The position numbers and the translations under genes are program-made. Of a stretch of 33,691 bases of DNA, positions 9,308 to 22,239 are shown piece by piece. This DNA is from a virus: IMG/VR virus record IMGVR_UViG_3300025168_000320, positions 1-33,691 of that record. The stretch is one strand, 5' to 3'. The notes beneath the pieces are model-generated. The model ran no database searches and was not told the DNA's origin. It saw only the letters and a program-made list of their open reading frames with translations. Position 1 is the stretch's first letter; each line of letters opens with the position of its first letter.

Positions 9308-9622
9308 ATGCCTAAACCTAAATCTCCTGCTTGGACAAGAAAAGCTGGAAAGAATCCTAAAGGTGGTTTAAATGCCAAGGGAAGAGCCTCTTATAAAAAA
9401 GGTACATTAAAAGCTCCTGTTAAAAGTGGAGACAATCCAAGAAGAGCATCTTTTCTAGCCCGAATGGGTGGTATGCCTGGCCCTGAAAGAAAGAATGGTA
9501 AAAAAACAAGGTTGTTATTATCATTGAATGCTTGGGGTGCGAGTAGTAAAGCAGACGCAAAGAAAAAAGCTGCTGGAATATCTAGAAGAAACAAAGCTAA
9601 GAAAAATAAAAAGAAAAAATAA
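9308..9622 (+). CDS. DUF6321-like basic phage protein
   Basis: 104 aa. Contains the conserved series AWTRKAGKNPKGGLNAKGRAS, then LKAPVKSGDNPRRASFLARMGGMPGPE and TRLLLSLNAWGASSKADAKKKAAGISRRN, which I associate with DUF6321, a phage family without assigned function. The last 20 residues are almost entirely Lys/Asn/Arg. Pre-spaced by one base after the 59-aa gene. Very high positive charge suggests DNA or RNA contact. Family recognition is good, role unknown. Confidence 0.8.
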   Translation: MPKPKSPAWTRKAGKNPKGGLNAKGRASYKKGTLKAPVKSGDNPRRASFLARMGGMPGPERKNGKKTRLLLSLNAWGASSKADAKKKAAGISRRNKAKKNKKKK

Positions 9623-9627
9623 TAATA

Positions 9628-9762
9628 ATGGCTAAACAAAAAAAAGTAAGCTGGATGTATGGTGGCAAAAAATATAGTGGAACTTATATTAGAGAAACTA
9701 AAAAAGCTATATTTGCTAGAACTACTAATGGTAAAATTAAAAAGATTATAAAGAAGAAGTGA
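9628..9762 (+). CDS. Tiny basic protein, unknown
   Basis: 44 aa, starting MAKQKKVSWMYGGKKYSG and ending KIKKIIKKK. The ATG is 5 bases after the preceding TAA; its TGA overlaps the GTG start of the next gene (GTGA), which supports both boundaries. The core WMYGGKKYSGTYIRETKKAIFART may be a small beta hairpin. No known family recognised; belongs to a run of four small basic proteins in this operon. Confidence 0.65.
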   Translation: MAKQKKVSWMYGGKKYSGTYIRETKKAIFARTTNGKIKKIIKKK

Positions 9763-10625
9763 ATCCAGAAAACACATTGCTAGGGTTACTTACTGGTGGT
9801 AGATACACTCAGTCATCGGACTTACCAACTGCTAGACAGGTTGGAAGTAGTGCAATAGATAGTATCATAGAGTCTGATAATAAAAGAAAAAGTAAAGTTC
9901 TTTTTGAGTCTGGTAAAAATATATTTGGAAAACCAACCAAAGAGTTTACCCAGGGAGACTTAGATGATTTAATATCTGGATTTGCTGGAACTACAAAGCC
10001 AATAATGTCTAAACTTGGCTTATCTAAAAAAGTTCCTAGAAATCCTTTGTACCACATAACAGATATGAAAAATATAAAATCAATACTAGCCGAAGGAATA
10101 TTACCAAAAGGGGGTAGCGTTTCTTTTACAAGAGACCCTAATTTAAAAGAAGTTTATGGAATTGGGAAAAAGAAAGTACAGCTATTAGTAGATAAAAATC
10201 AGGTAGAAAAATATGCTGGTAAAAAGTTATCTCCATATCAATATGTTGGTGGGAGACCCGAAGGAAAAGGCGGATTACGTTTTGAAGCTGAAGAGCGACT
10301 AACGGGAGAAGGGCTTGGTGCTACGCTAGCATCCTTCGGTTATAGTACTCCCAGCTCCTTTATAAAAGCAATAAGATTAAGAGACCTAGATAATTTTCCT
10401 AGACATCCTTCTGTAAAGTTCTCTCGTGAGATGAAATTAAAACAAGATGCTGAATTAGCAGAATTAATAAAGGATGCAACTAAAAAATACATTCCTATAG
10501 TAACAGATAAAAAATATAAAAAGAATATAGAAAAATTAATTGACAAAATTACTGGTGTATCAGATAAGGGTTACCTTAAAGAAAATATAAATTATATAGG
10601 TAAGAACACATCATGGTGGCGATAA
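9759..10625 (+). CDS. Putative ADP-ribosyltransferase-fold protein (ART-like)
   Basis: 288 aa with a GTG start overlapping the upstream TGA. The middle of the protein reads PLYHITDMKNIKSILAEGIL (His99 of YHIT at 98-101), then GGSVSFTRDPN (118-128), a Tyr-rich strand KKLSPYQYVGG (155-165) and RFEAEERL (174-181), followed by FIKAIRLRDL. The order YH-[ST], n-IL-x-G-[IL], S-x-S-F-T-R-D, later E-x-E-E-R is that of the 'phage YHVT / SFTRD' proteins, and resembles the H-Y-E arrangement of DarT/RNA 2'-phosphotransferase-type ARTs. The first 90 residues are unrelated. If correct it would modify DNA, RNA or protein using NAD. Position in the virion operon suggests delivery with DNA, as for T4 Alt. Fold assignment is tentative. 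Confidence 0.5.
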   Translation: MNPENTLLGLLTGGRYTQSSDLPTARQVGSSAIDSIIESDNKRKSKVLFESGKNIFGKPTKEFTQGDLDDLISGFAGTTKPIMSKLGLSKKVPRNPLYHITDMKNIKSILAEGILPKGGSVSFTRDPNLKEVYGIGKKKVQLLVDKNQVEKYAGKKLSPYQYVGGRPEGKGGLRFEAEERLTGEGLGATLASFGYSTPSSFIKAIRLRDLDNFPRHPSVKFSREMKLKQDAELAELIKDATKKYIPIVTDKKYKKNIEKLIDKITGVSDKGYLKENINYIGKNTSWWR

Positions 10626-10628
10626 GTA

Positions 10629-10742
10629 ATGCCTAATAAGGAAGCTAAAAACAGAAAAAGAAATCGTTTAAAATTAGCGATACAGAATAAGCGTAGAAAA
10701 AGAGAAATGAAAAAATTACAAAAGGAAAAAAGCAATGAATGA
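10629..10742 (+). CDS. Tiny Arg/Lys-rich protein
   Basis: 37 aa, MPNKEAKNRKRNRLKLAIQN then KRRKREMKKLQKEKSNE: more than 40 percent Lys/Arg, probably one charged helix. ATG begins 3 bases after the previous stop; the TGA lies inside the start region of the next gene (8-base overlap 10735-10742). Unknown family. May bind nucleic acid like its small neighbours. Confidence 0.55.
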   Translation: MPNKEAKNRKRNRLKLAIQNKRRKREMKKLQKEKSNE

Positions 10743-11274
10743 AGAACTAATGTCATTAATAAAATCTATGGCACAAACTGGAGCAGGAGGACTTTTAGGT
10801 ATGGGTACGTCTCCTACAATTTTTCAAGACCTAAAAACTGCAGCTGGACTGCCTCAACAGATTAAAGATAGAGCTAGTGGGAAAAAAACATATCGGGAAT
10901 TTTTAGCTGAAGATTCTAAAGGAATGACTAACCAGGAAAGGATGGGCATGACTTTAGAAGAATTTTTAAAAGAAATGACAGAACAATATAAAAAATCTCC
11001 ACGCTTACAAGAAAAACCAGAAGCTGCTAAATCTATAGATGATATTATAAACCAATCTGATATGGTTGAATTTTTATCTAAAGCTATGGCAGATAAAACT
11101 AATGTAGACTCTAGTGAAATGCCTATGGGAGCGGATATAACTAAGTACTCTTCAGATGATCCACTAGATTTATTATTTAAAATGCAAAACAATCAAAGAA
11201 GAGAGCCTTCAAATATAGAAGGCTTAATGAAAATATTAGAAGATTTAAGTAAGGCTAAACCACGGACTTCATAA
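10735..11274 (+). CDS. Hypothetical protein at the end of the virion operon
   Basis: 179 aa, acidic to neutral, helical, Met-rich. AAGGAAAAAAGC upstream of ATG 10735 is a fair ribosome site. An N-terminal Gly/Leu stretch (MAQTGAGGLLGMG) is followed by alternating charged helices (MTLEEFLKEMTEQYKK; PSNIEGLMKILEDL). No motif recognised. It is the last plus-strand gene before convergence with the minus-strand block; its TAA abuts the base of the hairpin used as terminator for the opposite strand. Confidence 0.6.
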   Translation: MNEELMSLIKSMAQTGAGGLLGMGTSPTIFQDLKTAAGLPQQIKDRASGKKTYREFLAEDSKGMTNQERMGMTLEEFLKEMTEQYKKSPRLQEKPEAAKSIDDIINQSDMVEFLSKAMADKTNVDSSEMPMGADITKYSSDDPLDLLFKMQNNQRREPSNIEGLMKILEDLSKAKPRTS

Positions 11275-11316
11275 ATAAAAAGAGGAGCGCAAGCGGAAAT
11301 AAACCTACGCCCCTCT
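11275..11316 (-). terminator. Intrinsic terminator at the end of the leftward operon
   Basis: On the minus strand AGAGGGGCG (11316-11308) pairs with CGCTCCTCT (11289-11281), nine pairs including one G-T wobble, followed at once by TTTTTATTTA. It lies 26 bases past the bS21 stop. The plus-strand copy lacks a T-run, so it should act only on leftward transcripts; it sits exactly at the convergent junction. Confidence 0.75.
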
Positions 11317-11341: not shown

Positions 11342-11518
11342 CTAAATTTTTCTCTCTCTTATTGCTTTTTTCTCTCTCTCCCTCCTGAGTTGGGAGGGCT
11401 TAGTGTAAAATCTTCGCTCTTCCAACTCTATTAGGAGTCCAGATTCTCTCACTTTCTTTTTAAATTCTGACAGCATCTTACCTATCTCTTTATTTTTTGT
11501 CTTCTTCACTAATATCAT
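11342..11518 (-). CDS. rpsU: Phage-encoded ribosomal protein bS21
   Basis: 58 aa. Aligns without gaps over the N-terminal core with bacterial bS21: start MILVKKTKNK, then MLSEFKKKV, ESGLL-E, and the hallmark RRFYTKPSQLRRER (E. coli: ALRRFK...REFYEKPTTERKR). The distance from Met1 to the FKK motif (19 residues) equals that of E. coli bS21; the C-terminal basic tail is shorter. ATG 11518 follows GGAG with a 5-nt gap and lies within the metalloprotease gene (29-nt overlap), so the gene is easy to miss. bS21 sits at the 30S platform near the anti-Shine-Dalgarno end of 16S rRNA and helps initiation. Phage bS21 copies are known to enter host ribosomes. It is the last gene before a terminator, so it is expressed with the replication operon. 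Confidence 0.87.
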   Translation of the reverse strand: MILVKKTKNKEIGKMLSEFKKKVRESGLLIELEERRFYTKPSQLRREREKKAIRERKI

Positions 11519-11870
11519 TTAATCTCCAAGTTTTTTCATATTCTTTTACAGCCCAATTCTCTGCTTTAATTTCCCATTTATTATCTTTATAATAATCTCT
11601 ATTACAATAGACAGCTACGTTCCCAGCTTGAGCATACTTTTTAATAAACTTTCTAATACCAATTCTACGAGCATCAATAGCGTGCTTACCTTCATGCAGC
11701 ACAGTCATTACAAAGTCTTTAGGGTCTGGGTTCTCTTCATTTATATCTCTAAGTATAATCTTATCTTCTTCTGCTAAATACATACCCTTAACATCTAGTG
11801 TCTTAGACATTACTACAGTAGGATAAATATTATACTTACCTAAAATTGATTTAGCTATTATATTACGCAA
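11490..11870 (-). CDS. Small zinc metalloprotease-like protein (HExxH, gluzincin type)
   Basis: 126 aa. Residues 59-63 are HEGKH inside VLHEGKHAIDARR, the HExxH zinc/catalytic motif; a downstream helix WEIKAENWAVKEY (99-111) supplies Glu100/Glu104 with E-x-x-A-E spacing like the third ligand of gluzincins. The N-terminus forms a short beta region (TLDVKGMYLAEEDKIIL), as in minimal ImmA/IrrE-like or SprT-like folds. No signal peptide, so it would act in the cytoplasm on a host or phage protein; substrate unknown. ATG overlaps the helicase stop by 8 bases. Confidence 0.7.
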   Translation of the reverse strand: MRNIIAKSILGKYNIYPTVVMSKTLDVKGMYLAEEDKIILRDINEENPDPKDFVMTVLHEGKHAIDARRIGIRKFIKKYAQAGNVAVYCNRDYYKDNKWEIKAENWAVKEYEKTWRLNDISEEDKK

Positions 11871-13218
11871 TTACAATCTCCGATTCTTGTACTAATAGTT
11901 TTTTATTTCTTTCATGTTCAGTAGCATCTATTATATCGTCAAACAATTTACAACTGTCTCCAGAGTAACCCATCTCTACCGAGCCTGGTGTTCCATATCT
12001 ATTCTTAGATACTATAAGCATCATTTCGTTTGGCATCCATATTCTACCATTAGAATCTTCTGCACCAAATCTAGACACATAAGGATAATGAGTGAACACT
12101 ACCATCTCAGCATCTTGCTCTAGTGAACCAGACTCTGCTAGGTCAGATAACCTAGGAGTAGAATCAATTCTATGTTCTATATTCCTGTTTAACTGCGATA
12201 CTAATATGATACACATATCATGACCTTTAGCTAACCATTTATACCTCATAGTTGTTTCCCTAATCTTATGTCTTAGGTCTCTATTGTCGTTAGATGGAAA
12301 CTCTATAAGTCCTATATGATCATCAATAACAACATCTGGTTTTAATCTTTTTATTTCACTAAATGTTTCACTCATATCTCTAATAGAGTCATACATAAAT
12401 AAATTATCTTTATAGTTCTTTCTAATATATTCCATAGCTCTTTCTACTTCTGGCTTAACGGTCTTATCTCCATGCCTAAGACCTCTATATGATATAGTAT
12501 CTGATTCCATAGCTATAAATTTCTTCATCATTTCTACATTTGGCATCTCACGATTGAACATCATTACTTTTTTGCCAGATAATACTAGCTGCCTAGCCAT
12601 ATTAGCTACCACCGTAGTCTTTCCATTGGCTGGTCTACCAGCTACAATAGTTATTTCACCCCTAGTCATTCCATGTACAACAGAATCTAATTTACCTAGT
12701 CCTGTTTTTATAATTCCTTTACTATTAAATATAGAATCACTTGTTTCGTCAAGTAAATTATCTATATTAAAATCATTCTTAGATGGTCTTAGATTTATTA
12801 AGTTACTAGAATCTGTATTCACTTGATTTATAAGAGAATCCATATCTACTGAATTATCTTCTGCATTCTTTATTATAGTATGAGAATGCTTTACCATTTC
12901 CCTTCTTAACCAATGCTCATGCATTAGTCTAGCATAGTACTCTGCTCTAGATGTTGTAGCTTCTTTAGTACATATAGTTGTTATCTCATAAGTAACTTGT
13001 CTGGTTTGATAATTCTTAGAAGGAAAGTTGTGGGATACAGTTAACATATCTATATCCTCTCCCTTTTCCTCTAATCTCTTTACTGTCTTCCATATATCTC
13101 TGTTAAAATCATTGTAAAAAACATCGTCAGTTTCTATCCATCTCTTGACAATATCAATATTACTTGGCTTGTTTATAACTGAGAATAATACAGCTTCCTC
13201 TATTTCTACGTTATGCAT
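11863..13218 (-). CDS. dnaB: Replicative DNA helicase, DnaB family
   Basis: 451 aa, close to bacterial DnaB length. Residues 1-110 are the DnaB N-terminal helical domain (EEAVLFSVINKP; AEYYARLMHEHWLRREM); the RecA-like motor has Walker A GRPANGKTT (194-202), Walker B VVIDD (296-300), SQLNR (341-345) and RLSDLAESGSLEQDAEMVVF (356-375). It unwinds DNA 5'-3' at the phage fork. No primase domain is fused and no primase or polymerase gene is visible nearby, so host primase/polymerase or genes outside the window are needed. The zinc-ribbon gene just upstream (7-base gap) is in the position of a helicase loader. Confidence 0.95.
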   Translation of the reverse strand: MHNVEIEEAVLFSVINKPSNIDIVKRWIETDDVFYNDFNRDIWKTVKRLEEKGEDIDMLTVSHNFPSKNYQTRQVTYEITTICTKEATTSRAEYYARLMHEHWLRREMVKHSHTIIKNAEDNSVDMDSLINQVNTDSSNLINLRPSKNDFNIDNLLDETSDSIFNSKGIIKTGLGKLDSVVHGMTRGEITIVAGRPANGKTTVVANMARQLVLSGKKVMMFNREMPNVEMMKKFIAMESDTISYRGLRHGDKTVKPEVERAMEYIRKNYKDNLFMYDSIRDMSETFSEIKRLKPDVVIDDHIGLIEFPSNDNRDLRHKIRETTMRYKWLAKGHDMCIILVSQLNRNIEHRIDSTPRLSDLAESGSLEQDAEMVVFTHYPYVSRFGAEDSNGRIWMPNEMMLIVSKNRYGTPGSVEMGYSGDSCKLFDDIIDATEHERNKKLLVQESEIVIA

Positions 13219-15178: not shown

Positions 15179-16284
15179 AAATAAATACTCCTAATTACTT
15201 CAGAAACTACGTTAGTTGTTACTGCATTACCAAGACATTTATACCTCTGAGTATCAGATAATCCTTCAGTCCATCCGTCTGGAAAACCTTGCAATCTCTC
15301 ACATTCTGTTGGAGTTAATCTTCTTATCTTTGAGTTCTGTAATGTATGCTGTTGCATACCAGTATCTAGTGTTTGAGCTATACCTCTGCCAACTCTACCT
15401 CGCCTGGTTTTAGAACTAGGAACAGATAGATTAATACTGTCTCCTTCTTGAGCTATAGCATAGCCTTTCTTAGTGGCTTCCATCACCTTAACCTTGGTAG
15501 CTCCAGTTCTTTGACCCATATTGTCAAACCCTTTATAATAATTAGCATCTAAACAACTAGAGGTATCGCTAAGAATAACCTCTCCGTTTTTAACCCTAAC
15601 TCCTACTTTATATAATCCAGTCTTAGCTCCTACTCCTCCACCTACAGCTTTTATTGTAGTGGATATACCTTTCTGATCGTATACCCTATATGCTTGAGAC
15701 ATATTACTAGTAAGTTCTATCGGTCTGTTCTCTTTATTATTCTTTTCAATGACTTGTCCGATAGGAAATACTTTTTCTCTACCTCTTCCTCTAAGATGTC
15801 CGACAAGATAGATTCTTTCCCTATTTTGAGGGACTCCGAAGTTCTTACTATTAAGTAGTTCCCATTGCACCATATACCCAATGTCGGAGAGAACCCTAAG
15901 GATTGTCTGGAAAGTCCTTCCAGAGTCATGAGAAAATAAACCTCGTACATTCTCGAGTACAAAATGTCTGGGTTTTTTGTGGCTGAGAATCCGTGCGATA
16001 TCAAAAAATAGAGTACCTCTCGTCTCTTTAAATCCGAGTCTTTTTCCAGCAATGCTGAAAGCTTGACAAGGAAATCCTCCAACGAGGAGGTCGAAGTCGG
16101 GAAGTTCTCTCTCATTAATGTTTGTTGCGTCTCCATAGTTATTAACACCTTTAAAATTCCTTTCATATATTTGTGTTGCGTACTTATCTATTTCCGAATA
16201 GCCTACAAATTCAGCATTCGGAATAGTATTTTTTATTCCTAGCTCAAATCCTCCTATACCAGAGAACATTGAGAATACTTTCAT
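15175..16284 (-). CDS. DNA cytosine-5 methyltransferase
   Basis: 369 aa with all main motifs: I FSGIGGFELG (7-16, AdoMet), IV GGFPCQAFS (69-77, nucleophile Cys73), VI ENV (111-113), VIII QNRERIYLVG (153-162), and the C-terminal IX/X region RRLTPTECERLQGFPDGW and KCLGNAVT. The target-recognition region (about 195-300) is of normal length. No endonuclease gene is adjacent, so it is a solitary phage enzyme, probably shielding phage DNA from host restriction or changing host DNA. Specificity cannot be read. Last gene of a segment that begins after the terminator near 16500. Confidence 0.96.
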   Translation of the reverse strand: MKVFSMFSGIGGFELGIKNTIPNAEFVGYSEIDKYATQIYERNFKGVNNYGDATNINERELPDFDLLVGGFPCQAFSIAGKRLGFKETRGTLFFDIARILSHKKPRHFVLENVRGLFSHDSGRTFQTILRVLSDIGYMVQWELLNSKNFGVPQNRERIYLVGHLRGRGREKVFPIGQVIEKNNKENRPIELTSNMSQAYRVYDQKGISTTIKAVGGGVGAKTGLYKVGVRVKNGEVILSDTSSCLDANYYKGFDNMGQRTGATKVKVMEATKKGYAIAQEGDSINLSVPSSKTRRGRVGRGIAQTLDTGMQQHTLQNSKIRRLTPTECERLQGFPDGWTEGLSDTQRYKCLGNAVTTNVVSEVIRSIYL

Positions 16285-20825: not shown

Positions 20826-21146
20826 CTAAGCTATTGCGTAGTTAGCAGTTATCATATAGAAAGCCATATAGTTAATCTCTCTAAGCCAACCTATTCTTTT
20901 AAGAGTCTTGTATATACTCTCTGGCTCTACTGATTCTACTATTATGCCTTCTTGTTGTTCTATCTGCTTGGCTACATAGTTAAGATAAGACTCAAATGAA
21001 TCTGTATCTACAAAAGGATTGTTCTTAGCTTTCTTATAGAGTTTCTTCATTACATATAATTTAGATTTTACACGTATTGGATTCTCTATACCAACTACTA
21101 TCGCTGATCGCTTCTTCTTAGATGAAACAAGTTTGTCTATCATCAT
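20826..21146 (-). CDS. Hypothetical protein between amidotransferase and amidoligase
   Basis: 106 aa from ATG 21146 (MMIDKLVSSKKKRS), supported by AAGGAG 8 nt upstream; the first ATG at 21170 is less likely. Overlaps the end of the amidotransferase gene by 29 nt and is followed 8 nt later by the amidoligase, so the three are co-translated. N-terminal half is Lys-rich; the middle (SFESYLNYVAKQIEQQEGIIV) looks helical; it ends in MAFYMITANYAIA. Unknown family; could be a partner, adaptor or substrate of the ligase. Confidence 0.6.
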   Translation of the reverse strand: MMIDKLVSSKKKRSAIVVGIENPIRVKSKLYVMKKLYKKAKNNPFVDTDSFESYLNYVAKQIEQQEGIIVESVEPESIYKTLKRIGWLREINYMAFYMITANYAIA

Positions 21147-22239
21147 CAGACTCTCTCCTTCCATTAACATCTACTATTTTAGAGGTATCATACTCGTAGC
21201 AGCTACTACATATATAACAGCCATGAGTCTTAATAGGGTTGTCTGCCCATTCTCCACAGTATCCACAATCTATTCCCTCTTCATACTCTCTTTTAGAGAT
21301 ATTCTTTCTTACATTGTACTCACAGTCTACACATATATACTCTCTAGTATCTGCATTGTAGATTATATCCCACCATGCTGTATGATTGTTACATACATCA
21401 CAGTCTTTATCTCTAGAGTCTGTGCCGAAGCTATCATTATAACTACTAAACTCGTTATAGTGTCCTCCGAAGTAATTAGTCTCTAACATATAGTTAGATG
21501 CTATTACATTTGTATCATACGACTTCTTAGTGAAGTTCATCTTTCTATTAAACTTACTAGTATCTATAGTATATAGAGTATCATTCTTCAACTCATGTAT
21601 ATCCATAGATATTTCTGTACCTTTAATAGATTCTTCTAGAATGTCTTGTGTAGAGGCATAGAGCAATACTCTAGCTTCTTTCCAATAGCCAAAATAACAA
21701 GGTCTACCTTTCTCTTTTAATAGATGTAGTATATCTCTATTATCCTTATTCCAGGCGAGTGCGTAGTCTCCGTATATTTCATCTAGACATTCTTGAAGGT
21801 TATTATTGGAATTAAATAGAGCAAATACAGCCTGAGAATCTACTTCGTAAACTTCTTTTTTGTTTACAGAGATATCTGTATGGTTATGTATTATTCCATT
21901 ATGAGTTCCAATCACAGAGCCAATGTGGAAGGGGTGAGCATTTTCCAGAGTTATCTTTCCGTGGGTCTTCCATCTAGTATGTCCCAATACTACAGATGTC
22001 TCTGGGGTGAGCTCTTCTATGATCGTATCCCAATCTCTATGCTTGACAAGATTACTTGACTTTTTTAGAGACTTGAATACCATAGGGTTCTTCCCATTAC
22101 TAATAAAAGCAAGTCCTGTAGAGTGTTCACCTCTAACTACTGATAGTGCAGTAAGCTTAGTTAGAACTCTCTCCAGTTGCTTTAACTCGTACTCTGTTTG
22201 TGCGTTTTTCTTTTTGGCTATGCCAAATATTCCACACAT
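21118..22239 (-). CDS. Class-II glutamine amidotransferase (Ntn hydrolase) with C-terminal zinc fingers
   Basis: 373 aa. MCGIFGI places Cys2 as the N-terminal nucleophile after Met removal; VRGEHSTG (35-42), GHTRWKTHG (86-94), NAHPFHIG (100-107), THNGIIHNH (112-120) and GDYALAW (157-163) are the GATase-II landmarks seen in GlmS/PurF/AsnB. Only the glutaminase domain (about 1-235) is present, without isomerase or synthetase domain. Residues 280-347 carry two zinc modules, C280/C283-C303/C306 and C325/C328-C344/C347, similar in style to those in the amidoligase encoded downstream. It probably hydrolyses glutamine to deliver ammonia. AAGGAAAT precedes the ATG. Confidence 0.9.
   Translation of the reverse strand: MCGIFGIAKKKNAQTEYELKQLERVLTKLTALSVVRGEHSTGLAFISNGKNPMVFKSLKKSSNLVKHRDWDTIIEELTPETSVVLGHTRWKTHGKITLENAHPFHIGSVIGTHNGIIHNHTDISVNKKEVYEVDSQAVFALFNSNNNLQECLDEIYGDYALAWNKDNRDILHLLKEKGRPCYFGYWKEARVLLYASTQDILEESIKGTEISMDIHELKNDTLYTIDTSKFNRKMNFTKKSYDTNVIASNYMLETNYFGGHYNEFSSYNDSFGTDSRDKDCDVCNNHTAWWDIIYNADTREYICVDCEYNVRKNISKREYEEGIDCGYCGEWADNPIKTHGCYICSSCYEYDTSKIVDVNGRRESDDDRQTCFI

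Follow-up and report, generated by a model that had tools for sequence, protein, structure and literature searches.

The window analyzed here is the whole of IMG/VR virus record IMGVR_UViG_3300025168_000320 (33,691 bases). On its minus strand lies a 58-aa ORF (11342..11518) with an ATG start and a TAG stop, which was assigned to the rpsU-like phage genes encoding ribosomal protein bS21 on the basis of profile matches, relatives, and dN/dS. As read from the sequence, its start is led by a GGAG Shine-Dalgarno (SD) motif (11524..11527, minus strand) that pairs at −6.4 kcal/mol with a 9-nt anti-SD. The gene is the final one of the minus-strand replication operon, at whose end stands an intrinsic-terminator-like hairpin with a T-run (11281..11316, minus strand). 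Upstream, bS21 shares 29 nt (11490-11518) with an HExxH metalloprotease-like ORF (11490..11870, minus strand). A DnaB-like replicative helicase gene (11863..13218, minus strand; Pfam DnaB_C, 1.9e-49; also placed in a tree) served as the locus anchor. An earlier note on this DNA, made from the letters alone, had described both the 29-nt overlap and the place at the operon end beside a terminator, and both were confirmed (stem and T-run at 11316-11281 on the minus strand). On the far side, the ORF list gives the last ORF of the convergent structural operon (10735..11274, plus strand); alignments of 5 of 13 related pairs stop just past the terminator, before this side. The module junction right after the terminator was seen in the pairs L051/L067, L052/L053, L006/L007, L008/L018, and L011/L046.

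Since the same record carries phage genes for DnaB, terminase, portal, a Sak-like annealing protein, and an exonuclease, bS21 was counted as phage-encoded and not as host flank. A different case is MK416018.1 (L213), a 34-kb Klebsiella 'phage' record, in which an annotated bS21 gene lies between those for tsaD and DNA primase; this looks like flanking host DNA retained on a prophage, tsaD - rpsU - DNA primase being the usual host gene order. The ORF upstream of bS21 has the motif HEGKH in the window and HEGKH, HECKH, or HEAKH in all eight relatives looked at. Its single Pfam match, DUF3267 (putative zincin peptidase), is sub-threshold (E = 0.12), and it is also present in the clade without bS21 described below. 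Elsewhere in the window we noted (i) a class II glutamine amidotransferase-like gene in the replication operon (21118-22239, minus strand; PHROG 4736, E = 4.8e-35); (ii) a gene for a DUF6321 protein (9308-9622, plus strand), whose DNA is similar to that of otherwise unrelated Pelagibacter and Methylophilales phages (matches of 70-276 nt at 72-86% identity, with no other match in the 5 kb searched); and (iii) an ORF weakly similar to RNA 2′-phosphotransferase (9759-10625, plus strand; PHROG 5470, E = 4e-4).

The 58-aa ORF scored 34.5 bits against Pfam Ribosomal_S21 (PF01165; curated cut-off 27), the search that the earlier note had proposed, and 32.3 bits against NCBIfam TIGR00030 (curated cut-off 28.95). 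It also matched PHROG 21469, 'ribosomal protein S21', with E = 3e-8 (PHROGs come without a curated cut-off). Using phmmer against the PDB, bS21 chains were retrieved in the same register from the N-terminus (best E = 1.7e-5), and 21 of 21 alignment members matched PF01165 at E ≤ 0.1. An AF2 model of the protein (pLDDT 76.7) displayed long helical stretches at residues 12-36 (12-26/28-36) and 41-57, with helices as in bS21 ribosome structures; the best Foldseek match in the PDB was the B. subtilis bS21 chain 7qv1_b, a weak one (TM 0.55, E = 0.25). Codons 2-30, which lie outside the nucleotide element discussed below, are under purifying selection (pS 0.588, pN 0.183, pooled dN/dS 0.18; 12 sequences, all pairs). 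A chance ORF is ruled out by the profile and PDB matches, by the occurrence of the same 58-59 aa protein in 19 contigs, and by this dN/dS value. The identity put forward in the earlier note is upheld by the two curated cut-offs and the PHROG and PDB matches, and we regard it as virtually certain that the ORF is a genuine bS21 gene. Its description as hidden was mildly overstated: the ORF is real, but annotations exist for other phage bS21 genes (67-75 aa). Gene callers accept ORFs as short as 58 aa.

Relatives, gain, and loss of the phage bS21 gene

Two scans of viral contigs returned 19 and 20 bS21 relatives, mostly in the same contigs. The close form (58-59 aa) was found in 19 contigs, of which one is cut by the contig end and another, of 80 kb, holds two copies. 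A more distant bS21 is encoded by a different phage (L019). The 80-kb contig (IMGVR_UViG_3300030708_000851; L015, L066) carries two different DnaB-bS21 loci ~45 kb apart, which we read as two related phages joined or as a chimera.

Among the best 80 of 121 DnaB-relative loci, a bS21 ORF was detected near DnaB in 27 (18 of the close form, downstream, and nine divergent). Four sister contigs (L051, L067, L052, and L053) were without bS21 though their DnaB is 78% identical, and two loci ended too soon. In the other 47 (DnaB 48-52%), no bS21 was found within a flank of ~4 kb or up to the contig end, nor in any of the 21 of these that were searched as whole records. A Pfam search of 46 whole records found bS21 in 21, and none in the four loss records (31.9-46.2 kb each, searched whole). 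These counts indicate a retained gene with one clade-wide loss and not a spurious ORF, which also answers the concern of the earlier note that related phages might show stops or frameshifts at this locus. Among relatives of the metalloprotease-like ORF that are without the locus, 11 were searched, and no bS21 match better than E = 0.09 was obtained in them. In a midpoint-rooted DnaB tree of 30 rows with long outgroup branches, the bS21 phages formed one clade with one nested loss, requiring 2 label changes compared to a mean of 6.4 after shuffling. The simplest history is a gain of bS21 at the base of the group and a single loss; one bS21 may also have been swapped for another inside the group, the close and divergent forms being just 40-47% identical.

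Phage bS21 is the most common viral ribosomal protein (PMC6375957; PMC9976891), and Chen et al. 2022 (PMC9723584) mention over 14,000 matches in IMG/VR. The gene alone is thus another of a well-documented type (PMC6375957; PMC9723584). According to Mizuno et al. 2019 (PMC6375957), viral ribosomal-protein genes are under purifying selection, and the bS21 of Pelagibacter phage HTVC008M entered E. coli 70S ribosomes, which then performed at ~5% of wild-type translation in vitro. The link to known bS21 genes of aquatic phages drawn in the earlier note holds. The window has in common with HTVC008M a bS21-family gene in an aquatic phage and purifying selection (PMC6375957). Yet the HTVC008M protein matches that of the window weakly (tblastn E = 0.9, 37.8%), and its gene is without the CCTCC/GGAGG found here. 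In the account of cultivated phages given by Mizuno et al. (PMC6375957), bS21 occurs only in genomes > 130 kb. HTVC008M has a genome of 147 kb, whereas the contigs of the close group measure ~34-39 kb, the two-locus contig of 80 kb excepted. In the close bS21-positive group, the longest contigs with a single locus measure 37.7-38.5 kb, and relatives extend to 46-48 kb, all of which are possibly partial.

As in the huge phages of freshwater Bacteroidetes, bS21 resides here in a conserved gene neighborhood (PMC9723584). In those phages (293-331 kb, Bacteroidetes hosts predicted) it lies beside late structural genes according to the same source; in the window it closes the replication operon. In four of five large isolate phages opened (L208, L209, L210, and L212), bS21 comes after a gene for a CobS, AAA, or ClpX ATPase, directly or with one small ORF between; Mel-JY01 differs. 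In the window, bS21 is instead located behind the HExxH protease-like ORF. It has been speculated that such phages might remove host bS21 (PMC9976891), with which either an ATPase or a protease-like neighbor would fit.

The earlier note had proposed a comparison with the bS21 of candidate hosts to identify the host lineage, but the cellular matches were too weak to name one. A first scan of cellular genome contigs gave 103 pattern stretches and no bS21 relatives among them. A second, with basal phage bS21s added, gave 11 of 122 (one Omnitrophica, six Nitrospirota, three Desulfobacterota, and one Zymogenaceae). SD pairing of ≤ −5 kcal/mol was found at 0.13 of 365 internal ATGs, taken as the null, compared to 0.47-0.67 in pooled phage gene sets. 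Bacteroidetes ribosomes fail to recognize SDs (PMC9976891). The use of SDs far above the internal-ATG null sets the window phage apart from the Bacteroidetes huge phages and argues against a Bacteroidota host.

The nucleotide element in codons 31-51

Codons 31-51 of bS21 (11366..11428, minus strand) are near-invariant as DNA, whereas codons 1-30 and 52-58 are far more variable. The stretch RRFYTKPSxxRRER, on which the earlier bS21 reading was based, doubles as this element. Twelve sequences from relatives with DnaB divergence of up to ~1/3 were compared: for codons 31-50 (18 invariant columns), synonymous change was 0.13, versus 0.42 in invariant DnaB columns. None of 20,000 samples of DnaB columns was as low as 0.13, and the lowest 20-codon DnaB window reached 0.263. 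The codon CCC accounts for only 4 of the 149 Pro codons in nine window genes, yet it is invariant in the element.

The element is kept, adjoining the terminator, in all four bS21-less contigs, so phage bS21 is not the sole reason for it. Between two of these (L051 and L052), 5 of 52 core positions differ, compared to 0.36 of DnaB four-fold sites (P = 1.4e-5). No conserved alternative open frame was found through the element: all six frames are closed in the four bS21-less rows, and no second protein therefore explains it. In bS21-positive rows, the +1 frame is open but spans 22-85 aa, and the −1/+1 continuations differ in the four rows compared. An overlapping ORF or programmed frameshift was accordingly rejected as the cause of the synonymous constraint.

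Pattern matches in viral contigs were confined to the clade, with at least 23 stretches in at least 22 contigs (18 with and four without bS21); these are lower bounds, since the scan missed the L018 contig, which has the element. A second scan yielded 21 stretches, all in contigs of the clade. With model R1, one strong copy of the element was detected per phage and no repeats of it; outside the clade no match exceeded 17 bits, and inside it reverse-strand echoes of P1, one of the stems described below, scored up to 23.4 bits. An Rfam search of the window gave no match, and none of six relatives of the metalloprotease-like ORF that are without the locus (L202-L207) had the element. From the synonymous suppression, the alignment including bS21-less relatives, the recoding described below, and model R1, we conclude that an overlapping element is very probably under selection.

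Two stems can be drawn within the element. In P1, columns 1-13 (11416..11428, minus strand) pair with columns 30-42 (11387..11399, minus strand), as derived from pair counts over alignment A5. In P2, columns 31-36 (CCCUCC, anti-SD-like; 11393..11398, minus strand) pair with columns 44-49 (GGAGGG, SD-like; 11380..11385, minus strand), the latter being invariant in 18 of 18 rows of A5. The 3′ arm of P1 overlaps the 5′ arm of P2, and since both stems use the CCCUCC strand they are mutually exclusive. The P2 3′ arm belongs to a polypurine tract, AGGAGGGAGAGAGAGAA (11370..11386, minus strand), of which 13 positions (11373-11385) are identical in 14 of 14 pairs, bS21-less phages included. When the 21-residue peptide was recoded at random with synonymous codons drawn by phage codon usage (six sequences), the observed P1 was reached in 0-8 of 5000 recodings, the observed P2 in 30-43 of 5000, and the observed MFE in 1-17 of 1500.

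The best evidence for selection on the hairpin itself comes from compensatory changes in the bS21-less rows. There, two P1 mismatches (columns 8-35 and 11-32) become pairs, and both members of the pairs 6-37 and 9-34 are altered. In the full alignment, eight cells in four P1 pairs (1-42, 4-39, 6-37, and 9-34) were double-changed, compared to 1.9 in shuffles (reached in 0/500). In the bS21-positive rows alone, covariation in P1 was not significant (one cell, 138/500 shuffles), and the signal thus stems chiefly from a single bS21-less clade. This clade has lost the outer pairs 2-41 (3/3 distinct rows) and 3-40 (2/3), and the base of P1 is shortened accordingly. With the 3′ partner of P1 slid by +2, the score was 0.137 versus 0.166 unslid. 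RNAalifold favors P2, without covariation, and no covariation was found within P2 itself. Folding z-scores were −0.38 (141 nt) and −2.13 (81 nt) for the window, and 0.40 (L016), 0.05 (L010), −1.67 (L052), and −3.80 (L051) for relatives; the stretches folded are mostly not unusually stable, with the exceptions of L051 (strong) and the 81-nt window piece (mild). Altogether, a stem in the selected element is moderately supported.

In P2, CCUCC is paired with GGAGG like in the SD-ASD helix of the ribosome, close to which bS21 is positioned. By its sequence and in the recoding, the element displays what characterizes a mimic of this helix, i.e. CCUCC-GGAGG pairing that is alternative to another stem. 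The hairpin CCTCC-N(3-20)-GGAGG was present at the element in 5 of 5 derived bS21-positive genomes and absent from 12 others (three basal bS21-positive, four that lost bS21, and five outgroup genomes); the bS21-less phages no longer have the exact CCUCC arm. AGGAGGG occurs once in the window. The tract pairs with the anti-SD at −11.4 kcal/mol, but other sites of this genome do so more strongly (best rank of the tract 149 of 33676 windows).

Possible roles of the element

A precedent for such a helix outside the ribosome is OLE RNA, in which bS21 binds an SD-ASD-like duplex in the P6 stem; mutants with changed SD/ASD letters but kept pairing were still bound (PMC12054373). The window element resembles OLE RNA in its CCUCC paired to an SD-like arm and in its mutually exclusive local folds (PMC12054373). 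OLE is described as a large noncoding RNA found mostly in Bacillota (PMC12054373), whereas here a 63-nt element lies within the bS21 CDS, and binding of bS21 is conjectural. Autoregulation of rpsU in F. johnsoniae likewise ties bS21 synthesis to SD/ASD pairing, but the SD used there, at the start of rpsU, is an extended one (< −13 kcal/mol; PMC9976891). At the window bS21 start no such Bacteroidota-type extended SD was found, the GGAG there pairing at −6.4 kcal/mol, and the SD-like site lies within the CDS. In the openly licensed literature, we found no account of an RNA element residing within the bS21 gene of a phage.

Our overall reading, which we put forward tentatively as not quite probable, is that viral bS21 enters the 30S subunit and that the element of codons 31-51 acts in cis as RNA, maybe in response to bS21. 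bS21 would be translated from its GGAG-led start at the operon end and, by analogy with HTVC008M bS21, would most likely join the 30S platform of the host beside the anti-SD. The element most likely works in cis on its own mRNA. Ribosomes translating the last ORF run into the P1 hairpin, and this could determine which of P1 and P2 forms. This ORF would be bS21 or, where bS21 is missing, the metalloprotease-like ORF, whose stop codon falls within the hairpin, namely in the 5′ arm of P1 in L051 and in the loop in L052. Free bS21, from host or virus, may bind the SD/ASD mimic of P2, and such binding may exert feedback on the bS21 message or tag the 3′ end of the mRNA.

Of the parts of this reading, action as RNA and not as DNA is probable, while bS21 itself as the ligand is a doubtful possibility. 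Since the element resembles the ribosomal SD-ASD helix, the phage may control bS21 through a copy of its target. Rather unlikely is the fullest form of this idea, an autogenous riboregulator in which bS21 binding to an SD-ASD copy inside its own CDS flips P1/P2 and sets the amount of bS21, an overprinted device that outlived the gene in one clade.

In place of an RNA, the element could be a DNA-level site that overlaps bS21, e.g. a replication or primosome hairpin, a recombination boundary, or another protein-binding site, with incidental RNA folding. The inverted repeat of P1 scores on either strand, the element persists without bS21, and its location is a convergent boundary between two modules, at which different structural sides follow on related replication sides. 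But the breakpoints fall past the terminator, outside the element: in 5 of 13 pairs, replication sides that are 90-99.9% identical switch their structural side ~105-145 nt beyond the point where the P2 5′ arm begins. The single strong copy per phage also speaks against a DNA site, which we consider a minority possibility.

Unlikely, in our judgment, is a role of AGGAGGG as an SD-like site without a start codon that parks 30S subunits near the mRNA 3′ end and stabilizes the replication mRNA, with bS21 as a mere neighbor. STAB-SD, a known mRNA stabilizer, is likewise an SD-like site unused for initiation and binds 30S without it (PMC4113751); the tract pairs strongly with the anti-SD and is invariant in every pair compared, bS21-less phages included. 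Known STAB-SD works in 5′ regions, sitting in the leader, and its description in that source includes neither an overlapping gene nor alternative stems (PMC4113751), whereas the window element is inside a CDS. Moreover, other genome sites pair more strongly with the anti-SD, and the invariant CCUCC arm of bS21-positive phages would be left unexplained. Parking of this type is compatible with a cis-acting RNA.

Very improbable is a retuning of the ribosome by phage bS21 from SD-led early to SD-poor late genes. SD pairing of ≤ −4 kcal/mol was seen in 24 of 29 early and 10 of 21 late hand-picked genes, but two of the early starts are not start codons. Under one neutral gene rule in 17 genomes, the contrast is at least as clear in outgroup phages, which have no bS21 (strong SD in 0.67 of early versus 0.53 of late genes), as in derived bS21-positive (0.58/0.47), basal bS21-positive (0.54/0.54), and bS21-lost phages (0.54/0.55), and the idea is not supported. 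Equally improbable is an ordinary phage bS21 gene whose nucleotide conservation reflects recent gene conversion or chance codon bias: the phages of the group do recombine, and FYTKPSQLKRE must be a natural bS21 motif since the unrelated phage L019 encodes the same peptide with different codons, but the block is confined to codons 31-50 next to variable codons 1-30, some of its codons are rare in the phage, and it is kept without the ORF and with compensatory changes. Attenuation by pairing between tract and terminator was rejected, such pairing not being conserved in a comparison by eye.

Returning to the cis-acting RNA that we favor, this 58-codon gene is a compact case in which protein and overlapping element are separable by synonymous mutation, with the bS21-less sister phages as natural controls. 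If the element binds bS21, it would be the second natural RNA mimic of the SD-ASD helix after OLE RNA and would offer a direct, cheap assay of how a phage doses a ribosome-modifying protein.

A second CCTCC/GGAGG palindrome in the window (16076-16090) lies in a DNA methyltransferase gene and is common to G010 only among the 17 genomes scanned. No mimic was embedded within the bS21 CDS of the five large isolate phages. Of 80 Mosig bS21 relatives retained from 166, 66 were examined (match from residue 1, enough upstream DNA), and none of their 43 entries with distinct leaders had a mimic embedded in the CDS. Six of these 43 leaders have CCTCC upstream of GGAGG; they were not counted as mimics because CCTCC sits in a terminator-like T-run hairpin ahead of the SD. 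In two of the 11 cellular bS21 loci, a duplex occurs ~0.3 kb past the bS21 match. Mosig itself carries an upstream terminator-like hairpin, and in L209 and relatives, some Mosig-type bS21 leaders join a GGUGGAGGG/CCCUCCACC terminator-like hairpin to a strong SD.
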